In this document: piece after piece, positions 6,872 through 25,199 of the stretch
Layout of the letters: the number at the start of each line of letters is the position of its first letter
Position numbering within the stretch: the stretch's first letter is position 1
Source: Myxococcales bacterium
GTDB lineage: Bacteria > Myxococcota_A > Polyangia > Polyangiales > Polyangiaceae
Direction of reading: 5' to 3'
DNA length: 64,000 bases
NCBI GenBank assembly: GCA_016794345.1
Contig: JAEUKE010000117.1
Location: 1-64,000, forward strand
Program-made: the position numbers and the translations under genes
The notes under the pieces: generated by a model
Databases searched by the model: none
The model's input: only the letters and a program-made list of their open reading frames with translations
What the model was told of the DNA's origin: nothing

Positions 6872-7914
6872 GCCCCGCGCTCGTCCTGTCGCTGTTCGCG
6901 CAGGCCCTGCCTGCGCCGATGCCGCTGCCCGCGCAGGCCGCGCCTGCTCCGCCGCCTCCGCCGCCCACGCCTTCCATCACGGCCATGCTCGTGCACATGG
7001 CCGTGCCGCTCGTGCTCTTCGTCCTCGTGACGCCAGCGGTCTACTACTTCTTCCGGCGCACCTGGCGCGAGCTCGACGTCGAGGCGCTCGAGCACAAACG
7101 CGCGCTCCTCGCCCGCGGCGAGTATGACACGCGGCCCCTCGCGCTGTTCGTCATCACCGCGATCATCCTGACACTTCAGTACTACTACGACGCGGACTTC
7201 TTCCAGTCCGCGCTCAAGCCCCTGCTCCGCGAGTGGGAGCTCGCCGGCGCGACCTCACCGTGGGGGATCGGCGAGCACGTCTCGCTGAAGCAATACGGCG
7301 ATCTGTACCGCCTCTCGTGGTGGGCGATCACGCGCATCCTCGGGTACACGATCATCCCGTTTGCGATCTGGAAGGTCCTCTACCGGAAAGACAGCCTGCT
7401 CGACATGGGCCTCCGGACACGCGGCCTCCTGAGCCACGCGTGGATCTACCTCGTCTGCCTCGCCGTCGTCGTCCCGGCCGTCTTCGCCGTCGCGAGCCAG
7501 CCCGACTTCGGCAACTACTACCCCTTCTACAAGAAGAGCTCGCGCTCCTGGTTCGACTTCGCCGTCTGGGAGTCGCTCTACGTGCTGCAGTTCTTCGGCC
7601 TCGAGGTTTTCTTCCGGGGGTTCTGGCTGAACACGCTCCGCCGGAGCATGGGCTCGACCGCCATCTTCGCGATGTGTGTGCCGTATTGCATGATCCACTA
7701 CGGCAAGCCCTACTTCGAGACTTGTGGTGCCGTCATCGCGGGCATCGCGCTCGGCAGCCTCTCGATGCGGACCAAGAGCATCTACTCGGGCTTCATGGTG
7801 CACGTCACCGTGGCCCTCCTGATGGACTTCCTCGCGCTCGCCCAGAAAGACGCGCTGCCGCAGATCTGGTACCCGATGATCCCGAAGACGATGATCAGCC
7901 CGCTCGGCTTCTGA
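6868..7914 (+). CDS. CPBP-type (CAAX protease / Rce1-like) intramembrane metalloprotease homolog
   Basis: Polytopic membrane protein of 348 aa with a Pro-rich N-terminal stretch and about eight hydrophobic helices. The C-terminal half has the CPBP motif set in variant form: LEVFFRGFW (EVxxxR instead of the usual EExxxR), YCMIHYGKP with a conserved His, and SGFMVHVTVALLMD with a third-motif His. GTG 6868 overlaps the gltX stop (GTGA), indicating translational coupling; ATG 6919 or 6985 would be alternatives. Members act as prenyl-protein proteases, bacteriocin-immunity proteins or, in myxobacteria, sortase-like processors of MYXO-CTERM proteins. Which applies here is not clear. Confidence 0.78.
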   Translation: MSPALVLSLFAQALPAPMPLPAQAAPAPPPPPPTPSITAMLVHMAVPLVLFVLVTPAVYYFFRRTWRELDVEALEHKRALLARGEYDTRPLALFVITAIILTLQYYYDADFFQSALKPLLREWELAGATSPWGIGEHVSLKQYGDLYRLSWWAITRILGYTIIPFAIWKVLYRKDSLLDMGLRTRGLLSHAWIYLVCLAVVVPAVFAVASQPDFGNYYPFYKKSSRSWFDFAVWESLYVLQFFGLEVFFRGFWLNTLRRSMGSTAIFAMCVPYCMIHYGKPYFETCGAVIAGIALGSLSMRTKSIYSGFMVHVTVALLMDFLALAQKDALPQIWYPMIPKTMISPLGF

Positions 7915-10095: not shown

Positions 10096-11505
10096 ATGTC
10101 CACGAGCCTGGTTAGCCTGCCGATCCAGAAGGACGCCCACGCAGCCGAGGGCGCCGTCCCGGCTGTGAAGCCGGCGGTCGACCCGTCGACGCTGCGTCAC
10201 AAGGCCTTCCTCGAAGCCCCCGACTGGCGGCGCATCCCGGCCTACAAAGACGTGACCGAGGAGCAGTTCCTCGACCATCACTGGCAGAGCAAGAAGTCGA
10301 TCACGCGCCCCGACAAGCTGCTCGAGGCGCTGCGTGGCCTCACCTCGGACGAGTTCATCCAGGACGCGACCGCGGGCTTCGCGCACGCGCCCATGAGCGT
10401 GCGTGTGTCGCCCTACGTGATGAGCCTCATCGACTGGAACGATCCGTATTCGGATCCGCTCCGAACGCAGTTCATCCCGCTCGCGTCGCGCATGTTGCCG
10501 GACCATCCGAAGCTCGGGCTCGACTCGCTCCACGAGCAGGAGGACGCGCCGGTCCCCGGCCTCACGCACCGGTACCCCGACAAGGCGCTCTTCCTCCCGC
10601 TCGACACCTGCCCCGTCTACTGCCGCTTCTGCACGCGAAGCTACGCGGTCGGCGTCGACACCGAGGAGGTGGAGAAGGTCAAGCTCCACGTCAGCCCCGA
10701 GCGCTGGGCCAAGGCGTTCGCCTATGTCGCCTCGCGCCCGGAGCTGGAGGACATCGTCGTCTCGGGTGGCGACGCGTACAACCTGCGGGCCGAGCAGCTG
10801 AAGCTCATCGGCAGCACGCTCCTCGAGATGGACAACATCCGCCGCATCCGCATCGCCACAAAGGGCCCCGCTGTGATGCCGCAGAAGATCCTCACCGACC
10901 ACGAGTGGTTCGACGCGCTCACGTCCGTGGTGGAGCTCGGCCGCAAGAAACACAAGGAGGTCGTGCTCCACACGCACTTCAACCACCCGAACGAGATCAC
11001 CGGCATCACACGCGACGCGATGAACCGCCTCTTCGAGCGCGGCATCTTCGTCCGCAACCAGGCGGTGCTCCAGCGCGGCGTGAACGACCGGCCCGAGACG
11101 ATGAAGCTCCTCGTCAAGCGCCTCGGCCACGTCAACGTGCACCCCTATTACGTCTACGTGCACGATCTCGTGAAGGGCGTGGAAGACCTGCGGACCACCG
11201 TGCAGACCGCGATCGATCTCGAGAAGATCGTCCGCGGGTCGACCGCCGGCTTCAACACGCCCACCTTCGTGGTCGACGCGCCCGGCGGCGGCGGCAAGCG
11301 CGACTGCCACTCGTACGAGCACTACAACAAGACCACCGGCGTCAGCGTCTACACCGCGCCGAGCGTGAAGGCCGGGCAGTTCTACACCTACTTCGATCCG
11401 ATCCACCTGCTGCCGGAGGAGGGCCGCCGCCGCTGGGCCGACCCGAAGGAGCACGGCAAGATGATCCAGGAAGCGCTCGACGCCGCGGCCGCGAAGGCGC
11501 GCTGA
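10096..11505 (+). CDS. kamA: L-lysine 2,3-aminomutase (radical SAM, PLP-dependent)
   Basis: Interconverts L-lysine and L-beta-lysine using a [4Fe-4S] cluster, S-adenosylmethionine and PLP. The cluster motif CPVYCRFC (C172, C176, C179) is intact; the PLP-binding Lys is K401 in the DAPGGGGK loop, and the Asp residues that read lysine's epsilon-amino group appear conserved (YVHDLVKG and the Asp of DAPGGGGK). The 469-aa length and the C-terminal extension fit KamA rather than the shorter EpmB. An N-terminal extension of about 60 residues is somewhat long. Beta-lysine can serve as osmolyte or antibiotic precursor; no lysine-degradation neighbours are present. Its 3' end overlaps a convergent gene by 118 bp. 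Confidence 0.9.
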   Translation: MSTSLVSLPIQKDAHAAEGAVPAVKPAVDPSTLRHKAFLEAPDWRRIPAYKDVTEEQFLDHHWQSKKSITRPDKLLEALRGLTSDEFIQDATAGFAHAPMSVRVSPYVMSLIDWNDPYSDPLRTQFIPLASRMLPDHPKLGLDSLHEQEDAPVPGLTHRYPDKALFLPLDTCPVYCRFCTRSYAVGVDTEEVEKVKLHVSPERWAKAFAYVASRPELEDIVVSGGDAYNLRAEQLKLIGSTLLEMDNIRRIRIATKGPAVMPQKILTDHEWFDALTSVVELGRKKHKEVVLHTHFNHPNEITGITRDAMNRLFERGIFVRNQAVLQRGVNDRPETMKLLVKRLGHVNVHPYYVYVHDLVKGVEDLRTTVQTAIDLEKIVRGSTAGFNTPTFVVDAPGGGGKRDCHSYEHYNKTTGVSVYTAPSVKAGQFYTYFDPIHLLPEEGRRRWADPKEHGKMIQEALDAAAAKAR

Positions 11506-13043
11506 CGACGACGTCGCCGGAGCGCGAGCACGAGCCCCAGGATCGCGACGGTCGGGAGACCGAGGCGCCTGGGGCTCTCGCGCGTCGTCGCGCAGCCGCA
11601 GCCGTCGTCCGCGCCGTCCGTCGAATCGCCCGACGCACCGCCGCCACCGCCCGCGCCCGCCGATCCGGCGCCCGCGCCAGTCGTCCCCCCCGAGCCGGCA
11701 CCGCTGCCCGTGGAGCTGGTGCTCGTCGTGCTCGGCTCGGTGCCCACGTTTTTCAAGGTCGCGTCGAGCTGCCAGCCGGGGTTGTCGCCCTCGCCGGCGT
11801 AGGCGCCGCGGAACATCGCCATGCCCTTCGGTGTGCGGTTGAAGTCGACGTCGTAGTGGACGTCCGCAGCCACGGGCGCGAGGTCGACGGCCGAGCCCTG
11901 CGCCTGACCTGGCAACGGGTAGAAGTCCATCGACCCGAGCATCGTCGACGGGCTCGAGACGACCGCGGGCGCGTCAGCGAGCTGGAGGCTCAGGTTGTCC
12001 GCCACGTCCACCGCCGGTCCGGAGAGGAGCTCCGGCGCGAAGACGAGGTTCGCGCGGACGAAGTCACCCTCCGGCGCGCTGCTCCCGAACCGGATGCCGG
12101 TCGCGACCCCGTAGATCGTGTTGTTGTAGATGCGCGCCCGACGGAGCGGCAGATCGTGATCGGTCACCACGATGGCGGCTCCGACCGCGTCGACGAAGAC
12201 GTTGTCGTGGATGCTCACACGGCCCGAGGCCTGGAGCAGCGCCTCGCGCGGGTTGTGGAAGAAGAGGTTGCCGTAGATCTCGTACTGGTTCTCGCTGCCG
12301 GGGCCCGTCTCGGGGAAGCCGCCGACGAGCAGGTTGGGCCTGTCTCCGTCGGGGCTCGGCGCGTCGTTCTTGATGAAGACGTTGTCGCGGATGATGGTCG
12401 ACGTGGGCGTCTCGGGCAGGCCGCTCCCCTGGGGCCACGCGTTCTGGAACTTGATCTGCATGTTGTAGCCGATCGTGTTCATGACGAGATTGTTCTCGAT
12501 CACGCCGTCGACGAACGGCTGGCTCCCGTCCGAGTTGCCGAGATAGAGGCCGGTTCCCGCGCCGTCGATCACGTTGCGCCGGATCACCCAGCCCCAGGTC
12601 GGCGACTTTGTCGAGATGGCCACGGTCTGCTGGGACGCGCCGTGGCCGATGAATCGACACCCCTCGATCGTGATGTGGTGGGTCGTGTTGTTCCCCTTCG
12701 TGCTCACGCCGAAGACGCCATCCAGGCCCTGGCCGTCGATGGTGAGGTTCTTGATGACGACGTAGCTCGAGTCGGTGATCTCGACCGTGTTGCAGCAGCC
12801 GTTCCCGGTGAACACCGCCGAGCCGTCGGCCGGCCCCTGGATGACGATCGGCTGGTCGGCGGTTCCGGCGAGCCCGACGATATCGAGGTTGCCGCTGTAG
12901 GTGCCTGGCGCGAGGTCGAGCGTGTCGCCGGCGACGAGCGCCGGGACGACCGCTTCGTAGTTCGAGGGATCCGCGTCGACCGCCGCCGCTCCTCGTGCGG
13001 CGAGGAAGGTGCCGATGCCGAGAAGCGAGGCGAAGAGCCGCAT
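11388..13043 (-). CDS. Secreted right-handed parallel beta-helix protein with MYXO-CTERM-like tail
   Basis: Surface protein of 551 aa with a signal peptide (residues 1-21). A long series of beta-helix rungs follows: repeated patterns such as IVIQGPADGS, VVIKNLTIDGQ, ITIEGCRFIG, VIENNLVMN, IIRDNVFIKN and ARIYNNTIYG. A Gly/Ser/Thr-rich linker leads to DDGCGCATT, a hydrophobic helix and RRRRRQ, the MYXO-CTERM sorting pattern. The fold is typical of polysaccharide lyases and other carbohydrate-active or adhesive proteins; no catalytic set was identified. Unusually, about 45 residues follow the Arg cluster because the stop lies inside the convergent kamA gene. Confidence 0.85.
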   Translation of the reverse strand: MRLFASLLGIGTFLAARGAAAVDADPSNYEAVVPALVAGDTLDLAPGTYSGNLDIVGLAGTADQPIVIQGPADGSAVFTGNGCCNTVEITDSSYVVIKNLTIDGQGLDGVFGVSTKGNNTTHHITIEGCRFIGHGASQQTVAISTKSPTWGWVIRRNVIDGAGTGLYLGNSDGSQPFVDGVIENNLVMNTIGYNMQIKFQNAWPQGSGLPETPTSTIIRDNVFIKNDAPSPDGDRPNLLVGGFPETGPGSENQYEIYGNLFFHNPREALLQASGRVSIHDNVFVDAVGAAIVVTDHDLPLRRARIYNNTIYGVATGIRFGSSAPEGDFVRANLVFAPELLSGPAVDVADNLSLQLADAPAVVSSPSTMLGSMDFYPLPGQAQGSAVDLAPVAADVHYDVDFNRTPKGMAMFRGAYAGEGDNPGWQLDATLKNVGTEPSTTSTSSTGSGAGSGGTTGAGAGSAGAGGGGGASGDSTDGADDGCGCATTRESPRRLGLPTVAILGLVLALRRRRRQRAFAAAASSASWIILPCSFGSAQRRRPSSGSRWIGSK

Positions 13044-14026: not shown

Positions 14027-15112
14027 TCAGCTCTTCTTCTTCGGAGCCTTCTTCGGCGACGGCGCCTCCCCCTCGTAACGCGCGAGGGCGTTCGCGAGCT
14101 CGGTCTTCACGCGCTCGCGCAGCTCGGGCGGCTCGATGACCTTGGCGGTCTCGCCGAAGCCGAGCACCCAGGTCGTCACCTCCGTCAGATCGCCGATCTC
14201 CATCGTGAGGCGGATGCCGCCGTCCGGCAGCGACTCGAGCAGCTGGCTCGGGTGCATCTTGCGGGTCTCGACGTATTCGTTCACGCGCGAGTCGAACTCG
14301 ATGACGACGCGCTGAGGCGACTTTCCGCGCCAGATCCCGAACTGCCCCTGGAAGTGGTCGTCGATCCTGAAGTCGTCGGGCAGATCGAAGCGCTCGGTGA
14401 CCGCACACTCGGTGTCGCGCATTCGGTCGAGCAAGAAGGTCCGGATCTCCTTCTTCGCCACCTGGTAGCCCACGCAGTAGATGGCCTCTTTGTAGAGGAC
14501 CATCGCGTACGGGTGGATGATCGTCTTCTCGATCTTCCCGTCTTTCGGGCGCACGTAGCGGAAGTGGAGCGGGCGAAGGTCGGCGACCGCCTGGAAGACG
14601 TCGTCGAGCTCCTCCGTGCGCGACGCGTAGTCCTTCGGGGCGAACGGCAGATAGAGGAAGCGATCTTCGAGGCGGGCGTCGGCGACGCCTGCGTTCGGGC
14701 CACGCCCAGGGCGTCGGGCGACGCCGAGCAGCTTCTCGGAGGCCATCGAGATCTCGTCGTACAGCGCGGAGCCGCGCATGGGCTCGAACAGCCGGCGTGC
14801 TGCGAGCAGCGCGTACGCTTGCGTCCGCCTCACCTCGACCTTGCGCACGGCCTCCCCGGGCCCGAGCTTCCAGAGGACCGGACCGCCCGGCTTCGAGCGC
14901 ACGCTCACGATCTCGAGCTCTCGCTTCACGTGTGCGATGTACCGGCGCAGCGATCGCGGCGTGACCCCGAGCTCCGACGCGAGCTCGTAGAGCGAGAGCC
15001 CCTTCGGATGACGCTGGAGGAGCGAGCGGAGCGTGTCGAGCCGCCTCGCCTGCGTAAACTTGCCGCGGGGTCGGCCGCGTTTCTTCGTGGAAAGGGGCGC
15101 CTCGGTCGTCAT
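14027..15112 (-). CDS. WYL-domain transcriptional regulator
   Basis: DNA-binding regulator of 361 aa. The N-terminus starts with a basic AT-hook-like KKRGRPRGKF, then a helix-turn-helix (LSLYELASELGVTPRSLRRYIAHVKREL). The middle is a WYL domain (LHFRYVRPKDGKIEKTIIHPYAMVLYKEAIYCVGYQ) and the C-terminus a WCX-type extension with VTTWVLGFGETAKVIEPPELRERV. WYL domains often sense nucleic acids or small ligands and control defence or stress genes. It is transcribed away from the giant MopE/vWA gene with a 249-bp shared intergenic region, so it may regulate itself or that gene. Confidence 0.88.
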   Translation of the reverse strand: MTTEAPLSTKKRGRPRGKFTQARRLDTLRSLLQRHPKGLSLYELASELGVTPRSLRRYIAHVKRELEIVSVRSKPGGPVLWKLGPGEAVRKVEVRRTQAYALLAARRLFEPMRGSALYDEISMASEKLLGVARRPGRGPNAGVADARLEDRFLYLPFAPKDYASRTEELDDVFQAVADLRPLHFRYVRPKDGKIEKTIIHPYAMVLYKEAIYCVGYQVAKKEIRTFLLDRMRDTECAVTERFDLPDDFRIDDHFQGQFGIWRGKSPQRVVIEFDSRVNEYVETRKMHPSQLLESLPDGGIRLTMEIGDLTEVTTWVLGFGETAKVIEPPELRERVKTELANALARYEGEAPSPKKAPKKKS

Positions 15113-15361
15113 GACTCTTGCAGTCGAGCGCTGGTCTTACCCGAAGGAGGGGGGTCGGAGAAGCCAGAAGCCCGAGCGGGGTTGGGGCCCCGCTCGGCAG
15201 GCAGAACGCCCCGCTCATGTAGTCAACTCTCGCCAGAGGGACGAGGAGCTTCAGCGTCGTGCGGCAGTGGCCGTTGAGAAGAGGCGCCGGTTGTGTTGTG
15301 CTGACCCTGGATACTTCTACGTCCGCTGACGTCTCGGCAGCGCGCGTACACGAGGACAACC
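15113..15361. promoter_or_regulatory. Divergent intergenic region between WYL regulator and MopE/vWA gene
   Basis: About 250 bp that must carry the promoters of both divergent genes. GAGGAC precedes the ATG at 15362 with suitable spacing as ribosome binding site. No unambiguous sigma-70 or sigma-54 boxes or operator palindromes could be read with confidence. Confidence 0.4.
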
Positions 15362-18300
15362 ATGAACGTAGGCAAGCTCGTCCGTGGGCTCGGCGCACTC
15401 GCCGTCACTGCCGTCGTCTCGCTACCCGCGCCCAAGGCGCAAGCGCAGAACTGCAACTCGCCGAACCCCGCCGACTGGCCGCCCCCGGCTCGGCCCTACT
15501 TCATGCTGGTCGTCGACACGAGCGGGTCGATGATCTCGTGCACGACGCCGCCCAGCACCTACCCGGTCGAGTGCAACCAGAACGCAGCGGGCTACGCGCT
15601 CAACTCCTGCGGCATGGTGCCGAACCGCATCAACGACGCGAAGTGCGCGCTCCGGCAGACGGTTCAGGCCTTCAGCGGAGAGGTCAACTTCGGCCTCGCG
15701 ACCTACGCGTACACGCTGACGAACTGTACCGCCGGCGCCTGCGTCAGCGACTGCGGCACGCCGAACGGTGGCAACTGCAACGGCGACAACTACCAGTGCT
15801 CGAACGGGACCTACCCCGACTCGGGCGGTAGCCAGTGCGGCAACGTCCCGTTCTGCAACAGCGGAGCCGGCCCGGCCGCGCCCGCGTTCCCGGAGAGCAC
15901 CTGGCGGAACGGCGGCAACGTCGTCGTTCCGATGAAGCCCGACCCGATCAGCGGGCCGCCCGCCGCCGACAACACCTCCGAGCTCCTCGAGTGGTTCGAC
16001 GGCCAATGCGGCAACAGCAGGGAGCTCTGGGCGAACGGCAGCACGCCGATCGCCGGCTCGCTCGAGTCGGTCGCCATGTACCTGCGCACGGGCTGGCGCA
16101 TCTGGGACGAAAACGGCAGCTCCCCTGCAGCGGACGCGTATTGTCCGCCCCTGCAATACACGCAGAGCACGCCCATGACGGCGACGGACCCGTCGTGCCG
16201 CCCGGTGAACATCATCCTCGTGACCGACGGCGACGACACCTGCGAGGGCACCGCGCAAGACGGCCTCAACTTCTCGATCGCGGCCGCCTCGGACCTCCAC
16301 AACAACGGCATCACGATCGGCGGCACGAACTGGCCGGTGAACGTCTACGTCGTGAATTTCGCCGGCGGTACGCAGGCCAACACCGACGCGATCGCCGCCG
16401 CCGGCGGCACCGGCTCGTCGCTCTTCGCGACGAACGAGGTCGAGCTCGCGCAGGCGCTGTCCTCCATCATCGCGGGCGCCGTCGCGCCCGAGGTCTGCAA
16501 CAACGGCGACGACAACTGCAACGGCTGCGTCGACGAGGGCTACAAGCACTACTGCAACACCGGCCAGACCTGCTGCTCGTGGAACACGGGTGCCCAGCGC
16601 CTCAGCTGCCTCACGAACTACCAGAACAGCATCACGCCGGCGGATCCGGACGGAGACCTGGCGCTCTTGCCTTGCACCACGCAGGCGCAGGCGGGCAATT
16701 CGGCGACCTGGCTCTGCTACAACCCGGGCGATCCGTGCGACAACGCGGACAACAACTGTGATGCGGGCATCGACGAGGGCGCGACGAAGTGCGGCTCGCC
16801 CGCCCACTGTCCCCTGACCGAGACGTGCAACTCGCAGGACGACGACTGCGACGGCCTCACGGACGAGGCCGGCGTCTGCGGCTCCTGCACGCCCACGCCC
16901 GAGGTCTGCGACGGCTGCGACAACAACTGCAACGGCATCGTCGACGAGAACATCGCGCCCGTCGCGTGTGGCCTGTCCACGCCGGCGAGCTGCGCGGGCA
17001 CGAAGGCCTGTCTGCTCTCGGGCCAGCCCGTTGCCCCCGGCGGCTGCTTGCCCAACGGCGGCTTCGGTCCGTGCAACAACAACCCGCAGGCCGAGGTCTG
17101 CGACACCATCGACAACGACTGCGACGGCATCGTCGACGACGGGATTCTTCCGACCCCGTGTGGGACACCGGGCCTGAACTATGGTCCCAACAGCCATTGC
17201 AAGCAGGGCACCCAGGCCTGCGGCGGGACGTGCATCGGCTTCGTCGGTCCGGCGACGGAGATCTGCAACGGCATCGACGACGATTGCGACGGTCAGGTGG
17301 ACGAGCCCAACCTGCCCGGCGTGGGGCAAGCCTGCGGCGTCAACACGCCACCTTGCTCGCCTGGCGTGACCGCCTGTGTCAACGGCGCGATCGTCTGCCA
17401 GGGCGGCGTGCAGCCGACAGGCGAGGTCTGCGACGGCGTCGACAACAACTGCAACGGCTTCACCGACGAAGCGCCGCTAACCGACGCGCCGCTGCCGAAC
17501 CAGAACGGGTGCTGGAACGTGCCCGGCAACTGCTGCGCGCACGACAACCTCTCCTGGTGCCCGCCCGCGGGCGGCACCTGCTTCGGCGTCGGCGTCCTCA
17601 CCTCCCCTTGCAGCGCGGGCACGCTCGTCTGCGGCGGCGCTCAGGGCTGGGTCTGCCAGGGCGGCACGCTGCCGGCCGGCGAGGTCTGCGACGGCGTCGA
17701 CAACGACTGCGACGGAACGCCCGACGACGGATCCTTCCCCCAGGAAGGGCAGGCCTGCGGCCAGAGCGCCCCGCAGAACCCCGACCCGCCCGGCTGCACC
17801 CCCGGTGGTTGCCAGCAGGGTGTCATCGATTGCCAGGGCGGCGTCCTCGACTGCGTCGGCGACGTGCCTGGCGTCCCCGAGCTCTGCAATGGCGTCGACG
17901 ACAACTGCGACGGCACTTGCGACAACGGCCTGCCGATCGGCGCGCCGTGTGACCCGACCTACGACCAGGGCGACTTCCCCGACACCGATCCGTCGGTCTT
18001 CCCGTGCCAGCTCGGCAACCTGCAGTGCGACGGCCTCGGCGGGCTCATCTGCGTCGGCGCGGTCGGCCCCACGGCCGAGCTCTGCGACGGCAACGACAAC
18101 GACTGCGACGGCAATGTCGACGAGACCGGGCCGCAGCCGAACGGCATCGACGGCACGGCGGACCCGAGTGATCCCAACCACGTCATCGGGCAGCAGTGCC
18201 CGGACGACATGACCGAGATCTGCACCCCCGGCCAATGGCAGTGCGTGAACGCCGACGTCCAATGCGTGGGCGTCGATCAGGGCACGTTCGAAGCCTGTGA

Positions 18301-19423
18301 TTGCCAGGACAACGACTGCAACGGCATCACCGACAACGAAAACGACCGCGGCGAGCCGCTGCTCTGCAGCCCTGGCAAGTCGTGTGTCAACGCCAACGGC
18401 AGCTGCCAATGCGCCATCCCGTGCAACGGCGAGTTCTGCCCCTCCGGGCAGGTCTGCCTCGACGTCGTCTCGAGCGAGACGGGCCAGCCGCTCGGCAAGT
18501 TCTGCGTCACCGACTCGTGCGGGGACTGCGGAACGAAGACCGTGACGGACGCGAACCAGAACGTGCTCTGCGCGCCCGCGGGCACCGTGCTCGACGACTG
18601 CTACGAGCCGCCGACCTGCGTCTGCAAGGGCCAGAACGGTTGCCAGCCGCCCTGCTTCGGCGTCACGTGCTCCACCCCCGAGGTCTGCGCGAGCTATGGG
18701 CCGAACGCCGGGCAATGCGCCGACAACACCTGCTTCAACACGGGCTGCCCGGGTTGCGGAATGGTGTGCAGCGACGACGGAAGCTGCGTGATGAACCCGT
18801 GCACCGACGGCTCGTGCCCGGCCGACCAGGTCTGCAAGCCGAGCGACGACTTCCTGTCGTTCGAGTGCTTGCCGTCCTGCGCGACCGCGATGTGCAACAC
18901 CGGCGAGGTCTGCGTCGACGGCGCGTGCGTCGCCGACTGCAGCCCCGCTTGCCAGGCGGGCGAGTTCTGCGACTACTCGCAGAGCCCGCCGGCCTGCGCC
19001 ACGAACCTGTGCTTGGACGGCGAATACTGCGAGGACGGGTCGTGTTGCGATCCGGCCGACGGCTCGTGCGGCGCCTGCCCGTGCGAAGGCGTGCTCTGCC
19101 CCGACGGACAGGTCTGCGAGAAGGGCGAGTGCAAGCTCAGCTCGACCGGCGAAGGTGGCGGCGGCAGCACCGGCGTCACGACCGGCGCAGGCGGCGGCGG
19201 AACGACCGGGACCGGCGCCGGCGCCTCCGGCGAAGGGGCCGGCGACGCGTCGGGCGTCTGGGGCCTGGCGACCGGCGGCGGCGGCTGCTCGTGCGAGACG
19301 ACCGGGACCTCTTCGCGAGGTGACGGAGCGCTCTTCGCGCTGGCCGCTGTGGCCTTCGTCGGCGCCCGCAGGAAGCGCCGGCCACGCAAGAGCGCGCAGC
19401 GCGGTCAGGAGGCGTCGCGATGA
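15362..19423 (+). CDS. Giant surface protein: vWA domain plus 11 MopE-like metal-binding repeats, MYXO-CTERM
   Basis: A 1353-aa secreted protein. After a signal peptide (cleavage near AQA-QN, residue 29) comes a von Willebrand A domain with an intact MIDAS start DTSGSM at residues 52-57 and VTDGDDTCEG later. Then about 11 copies of the (E/D)xCNGxDD(N/D)C(D/N)GxxDE motif resembling the putative metal-binding (MopE, PF11617) repeat, interleaved with Cys-rich EGF/TNFR-like segments. The end is Gly/Thr-rich, then GGGCSCETTG, a hydrophobic helix and ARRKRRPRK, a MYXO-CTERM sorting tail. MopE of Methylococcus binds copper; metal specificity here is inference. It overlaps the next gene by 4 bp (ATGA) and the two are surely co-translated. 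Confidence 0.9.
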   Translation: MNVGKLVRGLGALAVTAVVSLPAPKAQAQNCNSPNPADWPPPARPYFMLVVDTSGSMISCTTPPSTYPVECNQNAAGYALNSCGMVPNRINDAKCALRQTVQAFSGEVNFGLATYAYTLTNCTAGACVSDCGTPNGGNCNGDNYQCSNGTYPDSGGSQCGNVPFCNSGAGPAAPAFPESTWRNGGNVVVPMKPDPISGPPAADNTSELLEWFDGQCGNSRELWANGSTPIAGSLESVAMYLRTGWRIWDENGSSPAADAYCPPLQYTQSTPMTATDPSCRPVNIILVTDGDDTCEGTAQDGLNFSIAAASDLHNNGITIGGTNWPVNVYVVNFAGGTQANTDAIAAAGGTGSSLFATNEVELAQALSSIIAGAVAPEVCNNGDDNCNGCVDEGYKHYCNTGQTCCSWNTGAQRLSCLTNYQNSITPADPDGDLALLPCTTQAQAGNSATWLCYNPGDPCDNADNNCDAGIDEGATKCGSPAHCPLTETCNSQDDDCDGLTDEAGVCGSCTPTPEVCDGCDNNCNGIVDENIAPVACGLSTPASCAGTKACLLSGQPVAPGGCLPNGGFGPCNNNPQAEVCDTIDNDCDGIVDDGILPTPCGTPGLNYGPNSHCKQGTQACGGTCIGFVGPATEICNGIDDDCDGQVDEPNLPGVGQACGVNTPPCSPGVTACVNGAIVCQGGVQPTGEVCDGVDNNCNGFTDEAPLTDAPLPNQNGCWNVPGNCCAHDNLSWCPPAGGTCFGVGVLTSPCSAGTLVCGGAQGWVCQGGTLPAGEVCDGVDNDCDGTPDDGSFPQEGQACGQSAPQNPDPPGCTPGGCQQGVIDCQGGVLDCVGDVPGVPELCNGVDDNCDGTCDNGLPIGAPCDPTYDQGDFPDTDPSVFPCQLGNLQCDGLGGLICVGAVGPTAELCDGNDNDCDGNVDETGPQPNGIDGTADPSDPNHVIGQQCPDDMTEICTPGQWQCVNADVQCVGVDQGTFEACDCQDNDCNGITDNENDRGEPLLCSPGKSCVNANGSCQCAIPCNGEFCPSGQVCLDVVSSETGQPLGKFCVTDSCGDCGTKTVTDANQNVLCAPAGTVLDDCYEPPTCVCKGQNGCQPPCFGVTCSTPEVCASYGPNAGQCADNTCFNTGCPGCGMVCSDDGSCVMNPCTDGSCPADQVCKPSDDFLSFECLPSCATAMCNTGEVCVDGACVADCSPACQAGEFCDYSQSPPACATNLCLDGEYCEDGSCCDPADGSCGACPCEGVLCPDGQVCEKGECKLSSTGEGGGGSTGVTTGAGGGGTTGTGAGASGEGAGDASGVWGLATGGGGCSCETTGTSSRGDGALFALAAVAFVGARRKRRPRKSAQRGQEASR

Positions 19424-22194
19424 GCCAGCGTCTCCTCTTCGCCTGCGTCGCCGCCGGTACCGTGGCCCTCGCCTTCGCGACGGGGTGCGACACCGAGGCC
19501 TTCTGCTTCGCCGACTGCGGTGAAGGAGCCTCCGCGAGCAACGGCACCGCCAGCGGCGGGAACGACTCGACGGGCTCCTTCAACGCCGGCGGCTCCACCG
19601 GCGCCTTCACCACGGGCTCGGGGATGGGCGGCATGGGCCCTTGCACGCCCACGAACGGCGGCCTCGAGATCTGCGACGGGCTCGACAACGACTGCAACAG
19701 CGTCGTCGATGACATCCCGGGCATCGACTACAACGCCGTCGAGACCTGCGGCCTTTGCAGCAACAACTGCCTGAACAAGCTGCAGTTCATGGAGAACATC
19801 ACCTGCACGCCCAGCCCCATGCCGGGGCAGACCCCGGGCACGTGCAACGGTGACTGCATCCAGGACTATTACGATTTCGACATGAACCCCGACGACTGCG
19901 AGACGTTCTGCCAACAGACGTCTCCGTCGGACACGGTCTGCAACAACAAAGACGACGACTGCGACGGGACGGTGGACGACGACGTCGACCTCTGCACCAC
20001 GACCGACTGCGGCTCATGCGGCAACATCTGCGTCGTCGCGAACGGGACCCCGGCCTGCGTGAAGCTGGACATGGACCCGACCTGCAACGCGAACAACATG
20101 CAGTGCCAGATCGGCAGCTGCTCGCCGGGCTGGGTGGACCTCGATCTCCAGTACGCGACCGGCTGCGAGTACGCCTGCACGCCGACGGGCCCCGAGCTCT
20201 GCGGAGACCAGATCGACAACGACTGCGACGGCCTGGTCGACGGGCTCGACGACCTCACGTTGGATCCCGCGATCGGCCAGCCGTGTTTCGGCGACCCGGA
20301 CGGCATCTGCGCGCTCGCGACCCACGAGGGCATCACGGCCTGCGTCAACGGCGCGGTCGCCTGCACCGGGCCGGACGTCCTCTTCGAAGGCGACGTCCTC
20401 GAGACCTGCAACGGCCTCGACGACGACTGCGACGGCATCACCGACGACAACCCCTCCGACGTCGGCGGAGCCTGCGGCACGAGCAACAACTACCCGTGCA
20501 CGTTCGGCACCTGGCAGTGCGTCGGGGGCGCCCTCGACTGCGCGGGCGACATCAACCCCGGCGTCGAGATCTGCAACGGCGTCGACGACGACTGCGACGG
20601 CCAGATCGATCTCCAGAACGGAAGCGCGCCGTCCGACTCGGTGGGCGCCTGCAATGTCCCCATCCCGCCACCGGCCAACCCGCCGGGAACCACCTCGCCC
20701 TGCGTGGCAGGCACCAAGGCCTGCGTAGGCGGCGTGGTCTCCTGCCTGGGCTCCGTCGGACCGACGGCGGTGACCGACCAGTGCGGGGACGACTCGAACT
20801 GCGACGGCACGCTCAACAATCAGCCCAACTTCCTGACCGACGTCACCCACTGCGGCAACTGCAACACGAACTGCCAGACCGGCGCGGTGAACGCCATCTG
20901 GGCGTGTGTCAACGGCGGCTGCCAGTTTCAGGGCTGCCTCCCAGGCTGGGTCGATCTGAACAACGACCAGCAGTGCGAGTACGCGTGCACCTTCGTCTCG
21001 GCGCAGGAGGCATGCAACGGCCAGGACGACGACTGCGACGGCCAGATCGACGAAAACGTCCTGGCCCCCTCGCCGGTCCAGGTCTGCGGGGTGAGCCCGG
21101 CCGCCACGCGGCCCGAGTGCACCTCGCAGGTCCAGGTGACGTGCAACGCGGGCAACTGGCAGTGCACGTTCCCCGCGGGCGTCTGCGGCCCGAGCTGCGC
21201 GCTGGCGACCGAGACCTGCGACGGCCTCGACAACGACTGCGACGGCTTCATGAACGAAAACGTGGCCGACTACGGACAGCCCTGCGCGAGCGACGACGGT
21301 CTCACGCCAGGCCACGGAAAATGCAGGACCGTGGGCACGAAGGTCTGCCTGAACGCCACCACGACGACCTGCAGCGCGACAAAGGCCGACTGCAACCTCC
21401 TCCCCGGCGGCTGCACCGAGCTCTGCGACGACATCGACAACGACTGCGATGGCCTTGTCGACGAGACCTTCAACAACAAGGGCACCGTCACGGCGCACTT
21501 CTACAGACCGAAGGTCGTGCGGATCTCGAGCGCCCCGAACGTCTGGACCTACCAATACGAGGCGAGCCGCCCCGACGCGACAAACGTCGTGCCGGGGACC
21601 GGGAACGGCTACTGGACGAGCGCGCCGCTCGGCAACACCCTCGACAAGACTGTGTCCTGCTCGGAGCCCACGAAGATCCCGTGGTTCAACGTCACGCCGC
21701 AGGAGGTCGAGCAGACCTGCCAGGCGATGGGCGGCACCATCTGCAGCACCGCGAACTGGAAGACGGCCTGCGCCGTCACGCCCGGCAGCGGCGCCGACTG
21801 CACCTGGGGCTACGCGCCGTTCGGCGCGGCGTGCACCTCGTCCTTCACGGCCACCAAGCAGTGCAACCTCGGCTACTTCGACTTCAACACGTCGTCGGCG
21901 GGCGATCAGGACGGTCTTCTGCCCACGGCCTCGGCGCTGCTCCAGAACTGCAACGCCGACTGGACCGGCCTGCTCGGCAACGTGAACCCCACGAACAAGC
22001 TCTTCGACATCACCGGCAACGTCCGCGAGATCACGCGGCTCAACGCGAGCACGTACATCCTCATGGGCGGCGCGTTCAGCAGCCAGGCGGAGTCGGGCGC
22101 CACGTGCGACTTCGACTTCTACGCGGTCGAGAACGACTTCAAGTTCTTCGACACGGGCTTCCGCTGCTGCTTCACGCAGGATCCGACGCTCTGA
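19420..22194 (+). CDS. Cys-rich lipoprotein with about nine MopE-like repeats and SUMF1-like C-terminal domain
   Basis: A 924-aa protein translationally coupled to the preceding vWA/MopE gene. The signal peptide ends in lipobox FATGC, predicting a lipid anchor. Eight good and one degenerate (DD)NDCDGxxD-type repeats run from about residue 85 to 690. The C-terminal 230 residues switch character: WFNVTPQEVEQTCQAMGG...NWKTAC, FDITGNVREITR, ILMGGAF and GFRCCF follow the order of the formylglycine-generating-enzyme/SUMF1 fold (GN(V)xE, GG(S/A)F, GFRC). The domain is probably used for binding rather than catalysis. Partner surface protein of the preceding gene product is the likely role. Confidence 0.87.
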   Translation: MSQRLLFACVAAGTVALAFATGCDTEAFCFADCGEGASASNGTASGGNDSTGSFNAGGSTGAFTTGSGMGGMGPCTPTNGGLEICDGLDNDCNSVVDDIPGIDYNAVETCGLCSNNCLNKLQFMENITCTPSPMPGQTPGTCNGDCIQDYYDFDMNPDDCETFCQQTSPSDTVCNNKDDDCDGTVDDDVDLCTTTDCGSCGNICVVANGTPACVKLDMDPTCNANNMQCQIGSCSPGWVDLDLQYATGCEYACTPTGPELCGDQIDNDCDGLVDGLDDLTLDPAIGQPCFGDPDGICALATHEGITACVNGAVACTGPDVLFEGDVLETCNGLDDDCDGITDDNPSDVGGACGTSNNYPCTFGTWQCVGGALDCAGDINPGVEICNGVDDDCDGQIDLQNGSAPSDSVGACNVPIPPPANPPGTTSPCVAGTKACVGGVVSCLGSVGPTAVTDQCGDDSNCDGTLNNQPNFLTDVTHCGNCNTNCQTGAVNAIWACVNGGCQFQGCLPGWVDLNNDQQCEYACTFVSAQEACNGQDDDCDGQIDENVLAPSPVQVCGVSPAATRPECTSQVQVTCNAGNWQCTFPAGVCGPSCALATETCDGLDNDCDGFMNENVADYGQPCASDDGLTPGHGKCRTVGTKVCLNATTTTCSATKADCNLLPGGCTELCDDIDNDCDGLVDETFNNKGTVTAHFYRPKVVRISSAPNVWTYQYEASRPDATNVVPGTGNGYWTSAPLGNTLDKTVSCSEPTKIPWFNVTPQEVEQTCQAMGGTICSTANWKTACAVTPGSGADCTWGYAPFGAACTSSFTATKQCNLGYFDFNTSSAGDQDGLLPTASALLQNCNADWTGLLGNVNPTNKLFDITGNVREITRLNASTYILMGGAFSSQAESGATCDFDFYAVENDFKFFDTGFRCCFTQDPTL

Positions 22195-22245: not shown

Positions 22246-23562
22246 GTGAAGAGCCTCGTTGAGCTCATCGCGCACAAGCGCGACGGTGGCGAGCTGTCCC
22301 CCGCCGATATCGAGCGTGTCGTCGGCGCGCTCGTGTCGGGGGATCTCGCCGACTACCAGATGACGGCCCTCTTGATGGCCATCTTCCTTCGCGGGATGAG
22401 CGACACCGAGACGGTCGCCCTCACGAACGCCATGACCCGCTCGGGGGACGTGCTCGATCTGTCGGGCGTGCCTGGGGTGAAGGTCGACAAACACTCGACC
22501 GGGGGCGTCGGCGACAAGGTCTCCATCTGCCTGGCTCCGCTCGTCGCGGCCTGCGGCGTGCCCGTCCCGATGGTCTCCGGTCGCGGCCTGGGCCACACCG
22601 GCGGCACCCTCGACAAGCTCGAGGCGATCCCCGGCTTCTCGGTGAACCTCGACACCTCCCGCTTCGCGGAGATCGTCCGCGACGTGGGCACCTCGATGAT
22701 CGGGCAGACCGCGCGCATCGCTCCGGCGGACAAGCGCATCTACGCGCTGCGCGACGTGACCGCGACGGTCGAGTCCATCCCCCTCATCGTCGCGAGCATC
22801 CTCTCCAAGAAGCTCGCCGAAGGCATCGACGGGCTCGTCCTCGACGTGAAGGTCGGCCGCGGCGCCTTCATGAAGACGGAGGCCGACGCGAGGCGCCTCG
22901 CCTCGGCCTTGGTCCGGGTGGGCACCGCTGCGGGCAAGAGCGTCGTCGCGCTCCTCACGCGGATGGACGCGCCGCTCGGCCTCGCCATCGGCAACGCCAA
23001 CGAGACCCGCGAGGCGCTGCTCGTCCTCGCGGGCGTCGGGCCCGCCGATCTCGTCGAGTGCACCTACGCGCTCGGCGCAGAGATGCTCGTCATGGGCCGC
23101 GCGGCCGGCTCGCTCGAGGAGGCCCGCGCGAAGCTCGCGGCCGCGGTCGCCTCCGGGAAGGCCGCGGAGGTCATGGAGCGCATGATCGCGGCTCACGGCG
23201 GGGATCCACGCGTCGTGGCGGACCCGTCCTTGCTCGCCGTCGCGCCGAAGACGGTCGAGGTCGTCGCAAGCCGGAGCGGCTTCGTCTCGCGCATCGACGC
23301 GCTCGAGCTCGGCCTCTCGGCGATCGAGCTCGGGGCCGGCCGCACGCGCGCCGACCAGGCGGTCGATCACGGCGTCGGCATCGACCTCCGCAAGAAGCCC
23401 GGCGACGCCGTGCAGGCGGGCGAGCCGCTCTGCGTCGTTCGTGCTCGCGACGACGCCGCGAGCACGATCGCCCGGATCGCCGCCGCTTTCGCGATCGACG
23501 ACCGCGGCCCGGAAGACAAGCCCATCGTCATCGGCCGCATCGACAGATCCACCGCGGAGTGA
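22246..23562 (+). CDS. deoA: Thymidine/pyrimidine-nucleoside phosphorylase
   Basis: Cytoplasmic salvage enzyme that splits thymidine/uridine with phosphate into base and (deoxy)ribose-1-phosphate. The 438-aa product shows all family signatures: KVDKHSTGGVGDKVS (phosphate site) at about residues 80-94, SGRGLGHTGGTLDKLE, RDVTATVESIPLIVASILSKK, and the C-terminal barrel-sandwich domain. It could be DeoA or the broader pyrimidine-nucleoside phosphorylase Pdp; the sequence alone does not decide. Start is GTG 22246. It begins an operon with a histidine kinase (3-bp gap) and response regulator, an unusual partnership for a salvage enzyme. Confidence 0.94.
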   Translation: MKSLVELIAHKRDGGELSPADIERVVGALVSGDLADYQMTALLMAIFLRGMSDTETVALTNAMTRSGDVLDLSGVPGVKVDKHSTGGVGDKVSICLAPLVAACGVPVPMVSGRGLGHTGGTLDKLEAIPGFSVNLDTSRFAEIVRDVGTSMIGQTARIAPADKRIYALRDVTATVESIPLIVASILSKKLAEGIDGLVLDVKVGRGAFMKTEADARRLASALVRVGTAAGKSVVALLTRMDAPLGLAIGNANETREALLVLAGVGPADLVECTYALGAEMLVMGRAAGSLEEARAKLAAAVASGKAAEVMERMIAAHGGDPRVVADPSLLAVAPKTVEVVASRSGFVSRIDALELGLSAIELGAGRTRADQAVDHGVGIDLRKKPGDAVQAGEPLCVVRARDDAASTIARIAAAFAIDDRGPEDKPIVIGRIDRSTAE

Positions 23563-23565
23563 CAG

Positions 23566-24510
23566 GTGGGCTACCGGCGGATCGTCCTCTTGCTGGTGAC
23601 GCTCGGCCTGGTCCCCGCCGGGCTCCTCTCGGCGATCGGCGTCATCTTGCTCATGGTGGGCGAGGCGGTGAACCTGCTCATGGGGATCCTCATCCTCACG
23701 TTCACGGGCACGCTCGTGACGGGCACGATCCTCGTCTGGGTCTTCCTCCGTCGTGAGAAGAACCTCTCGGAGCTCCAGTCGGACTTCGTCTCCAAGGTGA
23801 GCCACGAGCTCCGAACCCCGCTCACGTCGATCCGCATGTTCTCCGAGACGTTGAAGCTGAGGCGCGGCGACGTCGCCACGGAGGACCGCTGCATCGAGGC
23901 GCTCGAGCGCGAGAGCACCCGGCTCCAGGGCCTCATCGATCGCCTCCTCGCGTGGGGCCGGATGGAGAGCGGGATGCGCGTCTACGATCTGGCAGAGCAC
24001 GACGTCTCGGCGATCGTGGAGGAGGCGATCGGTGCGTTCGAGCCGACCCGGGAGCGACGCGACGTCGAGGTGACGACCGACGTCCCGCCGCGTCTGCCCA
24101 AGCTCTGGTGCGACCGGGCCGCCCTGGTCGACGCCCTCGTGAACCTCCTCTCGAACGCGTACAAATACGGCGGCAACCCGAAGAAGATCGAGGTCTCGGC
24201 GCGCACCGAGAAGGGCAAGACGAAGATCTCCGTGGCGGACAACGGGCTCGGTATCGCCCCGCGCGAGCAGAAGCGGATCTTCTGGAAGTTCTACCGGGTC
24301 GACGACAAGCTGACCCGCAAGCAGGACGGATCCGGGCTCGGGCTCTCCATCGTGCAGCACGTGGCCAGGGCGCACCGGGGCAAGGTCGAGGTGGAGAGCG
24401 CGCCCGGGGCCGGAAGCAAGTTCACCCTCGTGGTCCCGACAGAGCGCCCGGTCTCCGACGCCCTCATCCCGGAGGGCCGAACGGCGACAAGCGAGAGCCC
24501 GCCCGCATGA
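23566..24510 (+). CDS. Membrane sensor histidine kinase
   Basis: A 314-aa kinase with two N-terminal transmembrane helices (about residues 7-30 and 38-61) and almost no periplasmic loop, so it probably senses membrane or cytoplasmic signals. The H-box FVSKVSHELRTPLTSIR places the phosphorylated His at H80; the ATP-binding domain has N-box NLLSNAYKYG, DNGLGIAPREQ, a phosphatase-like FYRVDDKLTRK and GSGLGLSIVQ. Start is GTG 23566, 3 bp after the phosphorylase stop. It overlaps the response regulator gene by 4 bp (ATGA). Confidence 0.93.
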   Translation: MGYRRIVLLLVTLGLVPAGLLSAIGVILLMVGEAVNLLMGILILTFTGTLVTGTILVWVFLRREKNLSELQSDFVSKVSHELRTPLTSIRMFSETLKLRRGDVATEDRCIEALERESTRLQGLIDRLLAWGRMESGMRVYDLAEHDVSAIVEEAIGAFEPTRERRDVEVTTDVPPRLPKLWCDRAALVDALVNLLSNAYKYGGNPKKIEVSARTEKGKTKISVADNGLGIAPREQKRIFWKFYRVDDKLTRKQDGSGLGLSIVQHVARAHRGKVEVESAPGAGSKFTLVVPTERPVSDALIPEGRTATSESPPA

Positions 24511-25199
24511 CCCCCACGACCCGCAAGACCGTGCTCGTCGTCGAGGACGACGCTTCCATCGCCATGGGTCTCGAGCTGAACCTCACGGCCGAGGGCTACA
24601 ACGTCATCACCGCGGCGGACGGCGAGGACGGGCTCGAGCTCGCGCGCAAGGGGGCCGACCTCGTCGTCTTGGACGTCATGCTCCCCCGGCTCAACGGCTT
24701 CGAGATCGTGAAGAAGCTCCGGGGGGAGAACAACCCCGTGCCCGTCATCATGCTGAGCGCGCGCGGCGCGGAGCTCGACAAGGTCATGGGCCTCGAGCTC
24801 GGCGCCGAGGACTACATCACGAAGCCCTTCGGGTTGGCGGAGCTCCTCGCGCGCGTGAAGGCGGTGCTCCGGCGCGACGCGATCGCTCGCAGGCCGGAGA
24901 GCGTGGTGCGCGCGGCGAGCCTGGAGATCGACGCCGGGGCCCGGGTCGTCCGCAAGCGGGGAGACGTGGTGGAGCTGACGGCGACCGAGTTCGACGTCCT
25001 CTCGTGCCTCGTGAACGCCCAGGGCAAGGTCCTCACCCGCGAGCAGATCCTCGCCCGCGTCTGGGGCGTGAACCACCACGGCACGCCGCGCACGGTGGAC
25101 AACTTCATCCTCCAGCTCCGCAACAAGCTGGAGGAAGATCCGCAGGCGCCGCGGCACATCATGACGGTGCGTGGGGTGGGGTATCGGTTCGCGGCGTAG
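24507..25199 (+). CDS. OmpR-family response regulator
   Basis: A 230-aa two-component regulator. The receiver domain has the acidic pocket EDD (residues 13-15), phospho-acceptor D56 in VVLDVMLPRLNG, and Lys in ITKPFGLAELL. The winged-helix output domain shows VVELTATEFDVLSCLVNAQGKVLTREQIL and ends RTVDNFILQLRNKLE...TVRGVGYRF. ATG 24507 overlaps the kinase stop; together they form a cognate pair. Target genes are unknown; autoregulation of the phosphorylase operon is plausible. Confidence 0.95.
   Translation: MTPTTRKTVLVVEDDASIAMGLELNLTAEGYNVITAADGEDGLELARKGADLVVLDVMLPRLNGFEIVKKLRGENNPVPVIMLSARGAELDKVMGLELGAEDYITKPFGLAELLARVKAVLRRDAIARRPESVVRAASLEIDAGARVVRKRGDVVELTATEFDVLSCLVNAQGKVLTREQILARVWGVNHHGTPRTVDNFILQLRNKLEEDPQAPRHIMTVRGVGYRFAA

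Follow-up and report, generated by a model that had tools for sequence, protein, structure and literature searches.

Myxobacterial genomes encode dozens of MYXO-CTERM proteins, and the function is known for few of them. One case is traA/traB of Myxococcus xanthus, two genes that overlap by four bases, function jointly, each being required, and provide the outer-membrane-exchange receptor (PMC3325183). In MXAN_5598, a MYXO-CTERM motif lies inside a single ORF, which was suggested to derive from the fusion of two genes and to give a product processed by myxosortase (PMC11980579). With regard to the repeats considered below, the reference protein is MopE, which acts in copper uptake, holds Cu(I) at a site formed by His132, His203 and a kynurenine, and was protected by calcium from proteolysis during purification (PMC3423442). 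Searches of open-access papers gave nothing relevant on the gene pair reported here or on PF11617 in myxobacteria.

The pair lies in the window, that is, the whole stretch of 64,000 nucleotides that was analyzed, which belongs to a genome of 9.66 Mb in 321 contigs. Sequence comparison confirmed the pair, showed it to be conserved with co-evolving partners, and indicated that the two genes probably specify one two-headed surface adhesin or contact receptor.

Layout of the gene pair and its neighborhood

Table 1. Positions of the gene pair, its domains and the adjoining regulator in the window.
Feature	Position	Strand	Support or detail
Divergently oriented transcription regulator (WYL/WCX/HTH_11)	14027..15112	-	Pfam
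Intergenic region shared by the WYL gene and ORF1	15113..15361	.	
ORF1: vWA-headed surface protein with a signal peptide, a Cys-rich stalk of 11 repeats and a MYXO-CTERM anchor	15362..19423	+	1353 aa
vWA domain, residues 31-380	15452..16501	+	complete MIDAS: D52-T-S54-G-S56, T228, D289
ORF1 stalk, 11 repeats E-x-C-[DN]-x(2)-D-x-[DN]-C-[DN]-G-x-x-D	16490..18337	+	PF11617, E=2.6e-30
Predicted substrate of myxosortase: MYXO-CTERM tag of GGGGCSC, TM helix and an Arg-rich tail	19277..19381	+	TIGR03901
ATGA, ORF2 start overlapping ORF1 stop	19420..19423	+	DNA at 19420 = ATGAGC
ORF2: lipoprotein with a lipobox, a stalk of nine repeats and a head of SUMF1/FGE-like (C-type-lectin) fold	19420..22194	+	924 aa
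Lipoprotein signal peptide	19420..19488	+	lipobox LAFATG before C23, then conserved DTEAFCFADCGEG
ORF2 stalk, 9 repeats of the same kind	19666..21465	+	PF11617, E=4.6e-25
SUMF1/FGE-like head, residues 687-923, without the catalytic Cu-binding Cys pair	21478..22188	+	

Both ORFs and their ATGA stop/start overlap are located where the preliminary description had put them (Table 1), and its estimate of about 20 DxDxDG/Cys repeats is in keeping with the 11 and nine counted here. Its portrayal of ORF1 as a vWA protein with a MYXO-CTERM anchor is borne out by the intact MIDAS and by a TIGR03901 score of 24.8 bits (cut-off 20) over residues 1306-1340. That of ORF2 as a lipoprotein with a SUMF1-like C-terminus agrees with the lipobox, the Pfam matches of relatives and the predicted fold, and the divergent WYL regulator is likewise matched by Pfam. 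The term 'giant' is slightly strong for proteins of 1353 and 924 aa, but it suits relatives with open frames of up to 1980 aa and fused forms of up to 3162 aa.

A Pfam scan of both window proteins returned PF11617 alone, and none of the model libraries matched a vWA or an FGE domain in them directly. The PF11617 scores were 104.8 bits for ORF1 and 88 bits for ORF2 against a gathering score of 27, and the 11 and nine D-x-[DN]-C-[DNG] cores compare with means of 0.5 and 0.4 in shuffled sequences (maximum 4 and 3, n=1000). In the head of ORF1, a Rossmann-like fold bears the metal site DxSxS...T...D. Alignment with 29 relatives, seven of which were matched by Pfam VWA, showed that the D, S, S and D of the MIDAS are invariant and that the T is kept in at least 90%. 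The AF2 model of this head (pLDDT 88.7) was nearest to the vWA domains of the pilus-tip and biofilm adhesins PitA, PilB, SpaC and LapA (Foldseek, probability 1.00), and a search of PDB sequences with the vWA profile gave no match. Counted in residues, the stalk of ORF1 exceeds that of ORF2 (about 970 vs. 690) and includes an additional Cys-rich segment close to the membrane, which counts against the two-headed reading proposed below. The genome encodes a T2SS secretin (TIGR02517), as well as 10 CPBP-family loci, none of which was recognized as MrtX. One of these ten, a CPBP/Rce1-like (PF02517) membrane protein encoded at 7561-7812 (+), 8 kb upstream of the pair, may be a myxosortase candidate. 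Also upstream, at 11388-13043 (-), lies a gene for a 551-aa MYXO-CTERM-like protein (DGCGC...TM...RRRRRR) that resembles a parallel beta-helix.

At the lipobox region, most relatives of ORF2 share the pattern C-x-x-x-A-[FY]-C-[FWY]-x-[DK]-C. The FGE-sulfatase fold of the ORF2 head was recognized in three ways: PF03781 matched 10 of the 24 relatives, the head profile matched FGE, SUMF2 and CalU17 in the PDB (1.9e-6), and the AF2 model had FGE and the ligand-display proteins TvpA and Mtd as fold relatives in Foldseek. Across pairs, the SUMF1 domains share 24-67% identity. Equivalents of the Cu cysteines of FGE (human Cys336/Cys341) were absent from all 24 aligned members, in which the region reads GGAFxTxxExGAxC, and modeling together with this loss suggests that the head is most likely a binding head rather than an FGE. 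TIGR03525 (GldK) did not match ORF2, and the relative L224 scored 21.8 bits against a cut-off of 350. A diversity-generating system acting on the lectin-fold head was considered and rejected, as the C-terminus is strongly conserved and not variable. For the whole lipoprotein the AF2 pTM was only 0.46, so the stalk shape in this model is provisional.

Orthologues of the WYL regulator (44-79% identity) are divergent from, and adjoin, the vWA gene at 20 distinct loci, and the regulator therefore forms part of the locus in one clade. The shared intergenic region contains a perfect 10-nt inverted repeat, CCGAGCGGGG-N6-CCCCGCTCGG, at 15172-15197, a possible WYL operator or terminator. On the other side, a thymidine phosphorylase gene (22246-25199, +) follows the pair here and in about 20 related loci, in some of them on the opposite strand, and a histidine kinase and a response regulator are also encoded near the pair in a few. 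The synteny of the thymidine phosphorylase is conserved, yet these neighbors are probably bystanders.

Conservation, fusion and matched repeat numbers

Relatives of the ORF2 head were found at E<=1e-5 in 72 of 108 genomes of the same family, a count that includes more distant SUMF1-like proteins, and relatives of the vWA head in 39 of the 108. The carriers include Polyangium fumosum, other Polyangium species and many MAGs of Polyangiaceae and Myxococcota, in which the genes are arranged as vWA-lipoprotein, as vWA-vWA-lipoprotein or as the pair repeated twice. In L109 and L247 the order is reversed, the lipoprotein gene preceding the vWA gene. In the host genome itself, contig C31 (L017) carries another pair, which is shorter and consists of a vWA and MYXO-CTERM-like protein and, after a 4-nt overlap, a lipoprotein, with 4/3 repeats compared with 11/9 in the window. 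Its lipoprotein begins with C-DIQAYCFSDCGEG, the equivalent in ORF2 being C-DTEAFCFADCGEG. The vWA protein on C31 (L017:6058-9606, -) has an extra N-terminal region with a weak match to AgmC (adventurous gliding motility) below the cut-off.

Overlaps of 4 nt are common in operons. Across Myxococcota, 61 adjacent vWA-lipoprotein pairs were collected, all at distinct loci, and their junctions show a 4-nt overlap in 54 cases and a 1-nt overlap in two, with one case elsewhere and four not resolvable, although such counts are inflated because the overlap is co-inherited by descent. The second gene starts with ATG in 44 of the 54 overlaps and with GTG in 10; since several of the latter read GTGATG, the true start there may be ATG with a 1-nt overlap. 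An origin of the ATGA overlap by chance was rejected, given that 56 of the 57 resolvable junctions are of the 4- or 1-nt type and that other junctions in the same operons differ, the vWA-vWA junctions of the Polyangium triple operons having gaps of >350 nt.

The preliminary description had taken widespread occurrence of each gene without the other as an argument against a partnership. Within Polyangiaceae such a pattern was not found, and lipoproteins of the close group without an upstream vWA gene lie mostly at the ends of contigs or of the examined regions. True single lipoproteins are distant: L233-L239, from another class, have four or five repeats as counted here and the head, with no vWA neighbor. 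Frames of 646-648 aa in three Polyangium genomes are vWA-only paralogues. These cases suggest that each part can act alone or with other partners elsewhere.

At 17 further loci, both genes are joined in a single open frame, 1661 to 3162 aa long (L168 and L172, and, in other families of the order, L213-L225, L232 and L252). In mid-protein, at the fused junction, the lipoprotein signal peptide comes immediately after the Arg-rich tail of the MYXO-CTERM tag, as exemplified by L213 (VLAAGGCMCRATGGGSSSSGGWLALLLLGAVFLRRRRRRGSKGLGKGAAAAAAVAALLFASG, then CDVDPFC). The internal tag scored above the TIGR03901/TIGR03382 cut-off in L219, L224 and L172, and in L168, L213 and L215 the MYXO-CTERM pattern is present with scores below it. 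In L213, L219 and L224, ATG, GTG and TTG are absent from 45 to 12 residues ahead of the lipobox Cys, so the second half is unable to start separately in the usual way, and by their codons these three junctions are read as polyproteins. L172 keeps a plausible internal ATG, at which internal initiation may take place. The fused topology would be consistent, with the tag helix running from outside to inside, the Arg loop inside and the signal peptide running from inside to outside. On the best SUMF1-domain tree, built by a quick method and rooted at the midpoint, the fused or split state changes seven times, at least three of them on well-supported branches. Assembly frameshifts were rejected as the source of most fusions, which cluster in several genomes and include one on a 10.75-Mb contig (L225) and three start-less junctions. 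In the fused L213 and L216, further Cys-rich and unidentified modules are located C-terminal to the SUMF1-like head.

The numbers of repeats in the two partners rise together, from 4/3 through 8/6, 11/9 and 14/12 up to 18/16. Counts made with one regular expression in 75 pairs gave a Pearson r of 0.946, which became 0.914 (p 2e-30) for phylogenetic contrasts on the quick tree, and stalk length in residues gave r = 0.80. Within the 18 genomes holding more than one pair (L126 and L246, with broken or partial vWA frames, being left out), r was 0.98, and 0 of 20000 within-genome permutations reached this value. Pairs of different size coexist in nearly all of these 18 genomes, each matched to its own partner, a pattern that a common surface-layer thickness would not produce. 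This length-matching rule predicts which chains pair in multi-copy genomes.

Proposed role of the pair and alternative readings

The conserved 4-nt overlap, the repeated fusions, the matched repeats and, at 20 loci of one clade, the conserved divergent WYL gene lend good support to the two-partner complex that had been suggested at the outset. We propose that the vWA protein would be secreted by Sec and anchored at its C-terminus via MYXO-CTERM (lipidation, myxosortase cleavage and type II secretion), with its N-terminal vWA/MIDAS head at the tip of a rigid repeat stalk stabilized by disulfides and probably by calcium. The lipoprotein would be anchored at its N-terminus and carry, at the C-terminal end of a stalk built from the same repeat, a non-enzymatic, SUMF1-like head of C-type-lectin fold. 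Because ORF1 is C-anchored and ORF2 N-anchored, with opposite polarity, equal stalks would bring both heads level, and in a physical complex on the cell surface they might act jointly on a ligand as a two-headed adhesin or contact receptor. Production in a 1:1 ratio from one membrane site would be provided by the 4-nt overlap or, in the fused loci, by the membrane hairpin of MYXO-CTERM helix and signal peptide. For the role, the simplest assumption is adhesion or contact sensing. The lipoprotein could instead be located at the outer membrane on its periplasmic side.

The preliminary description had further proposed metal capture, and this part found no support, for copper in particular. In such a reading, the pair would be a surface capture device for copper or another transition metal, the repeats serving as metal-loading sites as in MopE. 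PF11617 is indeed named after MopE, a protein of copper uptake (PMC3423442), but the Cu(I) site of MopE (His132/His203/kynurenine) is not part of the PF11617 repeat, and the C-terminal Cu(I) domain with its two His and kynurenine was not found in the pair. The repeats are nearly free of His: six such residues occur in ORF1 and four in ORF2, none of them within a repeat core. ORF2 gave no match at E<=1 to the MopE chains in the PDB, the Cu cysteines of FGE are missing from the SUMF1-like head, and no metal-transport gene was seen adjoining the pair. We consider capture of copper or its like very improbable, and the 'Cu-binding_MopE' label of PF11617 should not be taken as evidence of copper binding. 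The spacing of the repeat motif reads as that of a DxDxDGxxD calcium loop. Since calcium stabilized MopE (PMC3423442), a structural calcium role fits better than copper, and calcium-stabilized stalks are plausible. Calcium-dependent adhesion, the other option in the preliminary description, is a fair hypothesis that would fit both these loops and the MIDAS.

The two genes might also encode independent surface proteins, adhesins or decoys that are merely co-expressed, with repeat numbers matched so as to reach past the same surface layer. The same repeat does occur in many other proteins of the host genome, but pairs within a genome are matched solely to their own partner, fusion into one ORF has occurred repeatedly and the overlap is nearly invariant, and we regard independence as unlikely. 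It is less probable still that the SUMF1-like head acts enzymatically, as an oxidase of the FGE or EgtB type modifying its partner or a surface glycoprotein, with the vWA protein as scaffold. The FGE fold and weak NCBIfam matches of fused relatives to EgtB, SenA and GldK point that way, but these scores lie far under the family cut-offs, and no aligned member retains the two cysteines. A jointly acting two-headed adhesin or receptor is thus the reading we prefer. More tentatively, and with expectations somewhat short of even, the pair could represent a new class of heteromeric receptor, in which chains made at one site through overlap or polyprotein, a hairpin cut by myxosortase and lipoprotein signal peptidase, and a pair-specific repeat number acting as molecular ruler are combined. 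One large MYXO-CTERM group becomes a defined, testable system with respect to partner identity, stoichiometry, anchor topology and the length rule, and the fused forms, with an internal tag followed by a lipoprotein signal peptide, offer a natural test of myxosortase topology.

Comparison with known systems

PitA, PilB, SpaC and LapA likewise present a MIDAS vWA domain on a surface-anchored protein, but their anchors, stalks and partners are different. CglB of gliding motility is a bacterial vWA adhesin as well. The C-type-lectin/FGE fold of the ORF2 head is shared with TvpA, Mtd and GldK/PorK, of which TvpA and GldK are also borne on lipoproteins. Unlike TvpA and Mtd, the ORF2 head is, as far as seen, not diversity-generated, its C-terminus being highly conserved, and the GldK/PorK family is set apart by the score of L224 far below the cut-off. 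MopE of Methylococcus capsulatus shares the PF11617 name, whereas its copper domain and kynurenine/histidine site are absent here.

The fused loci resemble MXAN_5598 in that one ORF contains the MYXO-CTERM motif internally. However, the C-terminal half of MXAN_5598 is an outer-membrane beta-barrel with OmpA domains rather than a second, lipidated protein with a matched stalk, whereas in the fused loci the tag abuts a lipoprotein signal peptide. TraA-TraB comes close in organization, as it too combines a MYXO-CTERM surface protein, a distal head, a Cys-rich repeat stalk and a partner ORF with a four-base overlap, and the window pair does have a MYXO-CTERM gene overlapping its partner by four bases. 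On the other hand, TraA has a PA14 head and TIGR04201 repeats and TraB is an OmpA-domain outer-membrane partner, in contrast to the vWA head, the PF11617 repeats and the lipoprotein with a SUMF1-like head found here; the Pfam scan detected neither PA14 nor OmpA domains in the window pair. As far as seen, the TraAB account (PMC3325183) describes neither matched stalks nor repeated fusions. Although it is not a member of that system, the pair may thus work in a way analogous to the TraA-TraB type of two-partner surface receptor.
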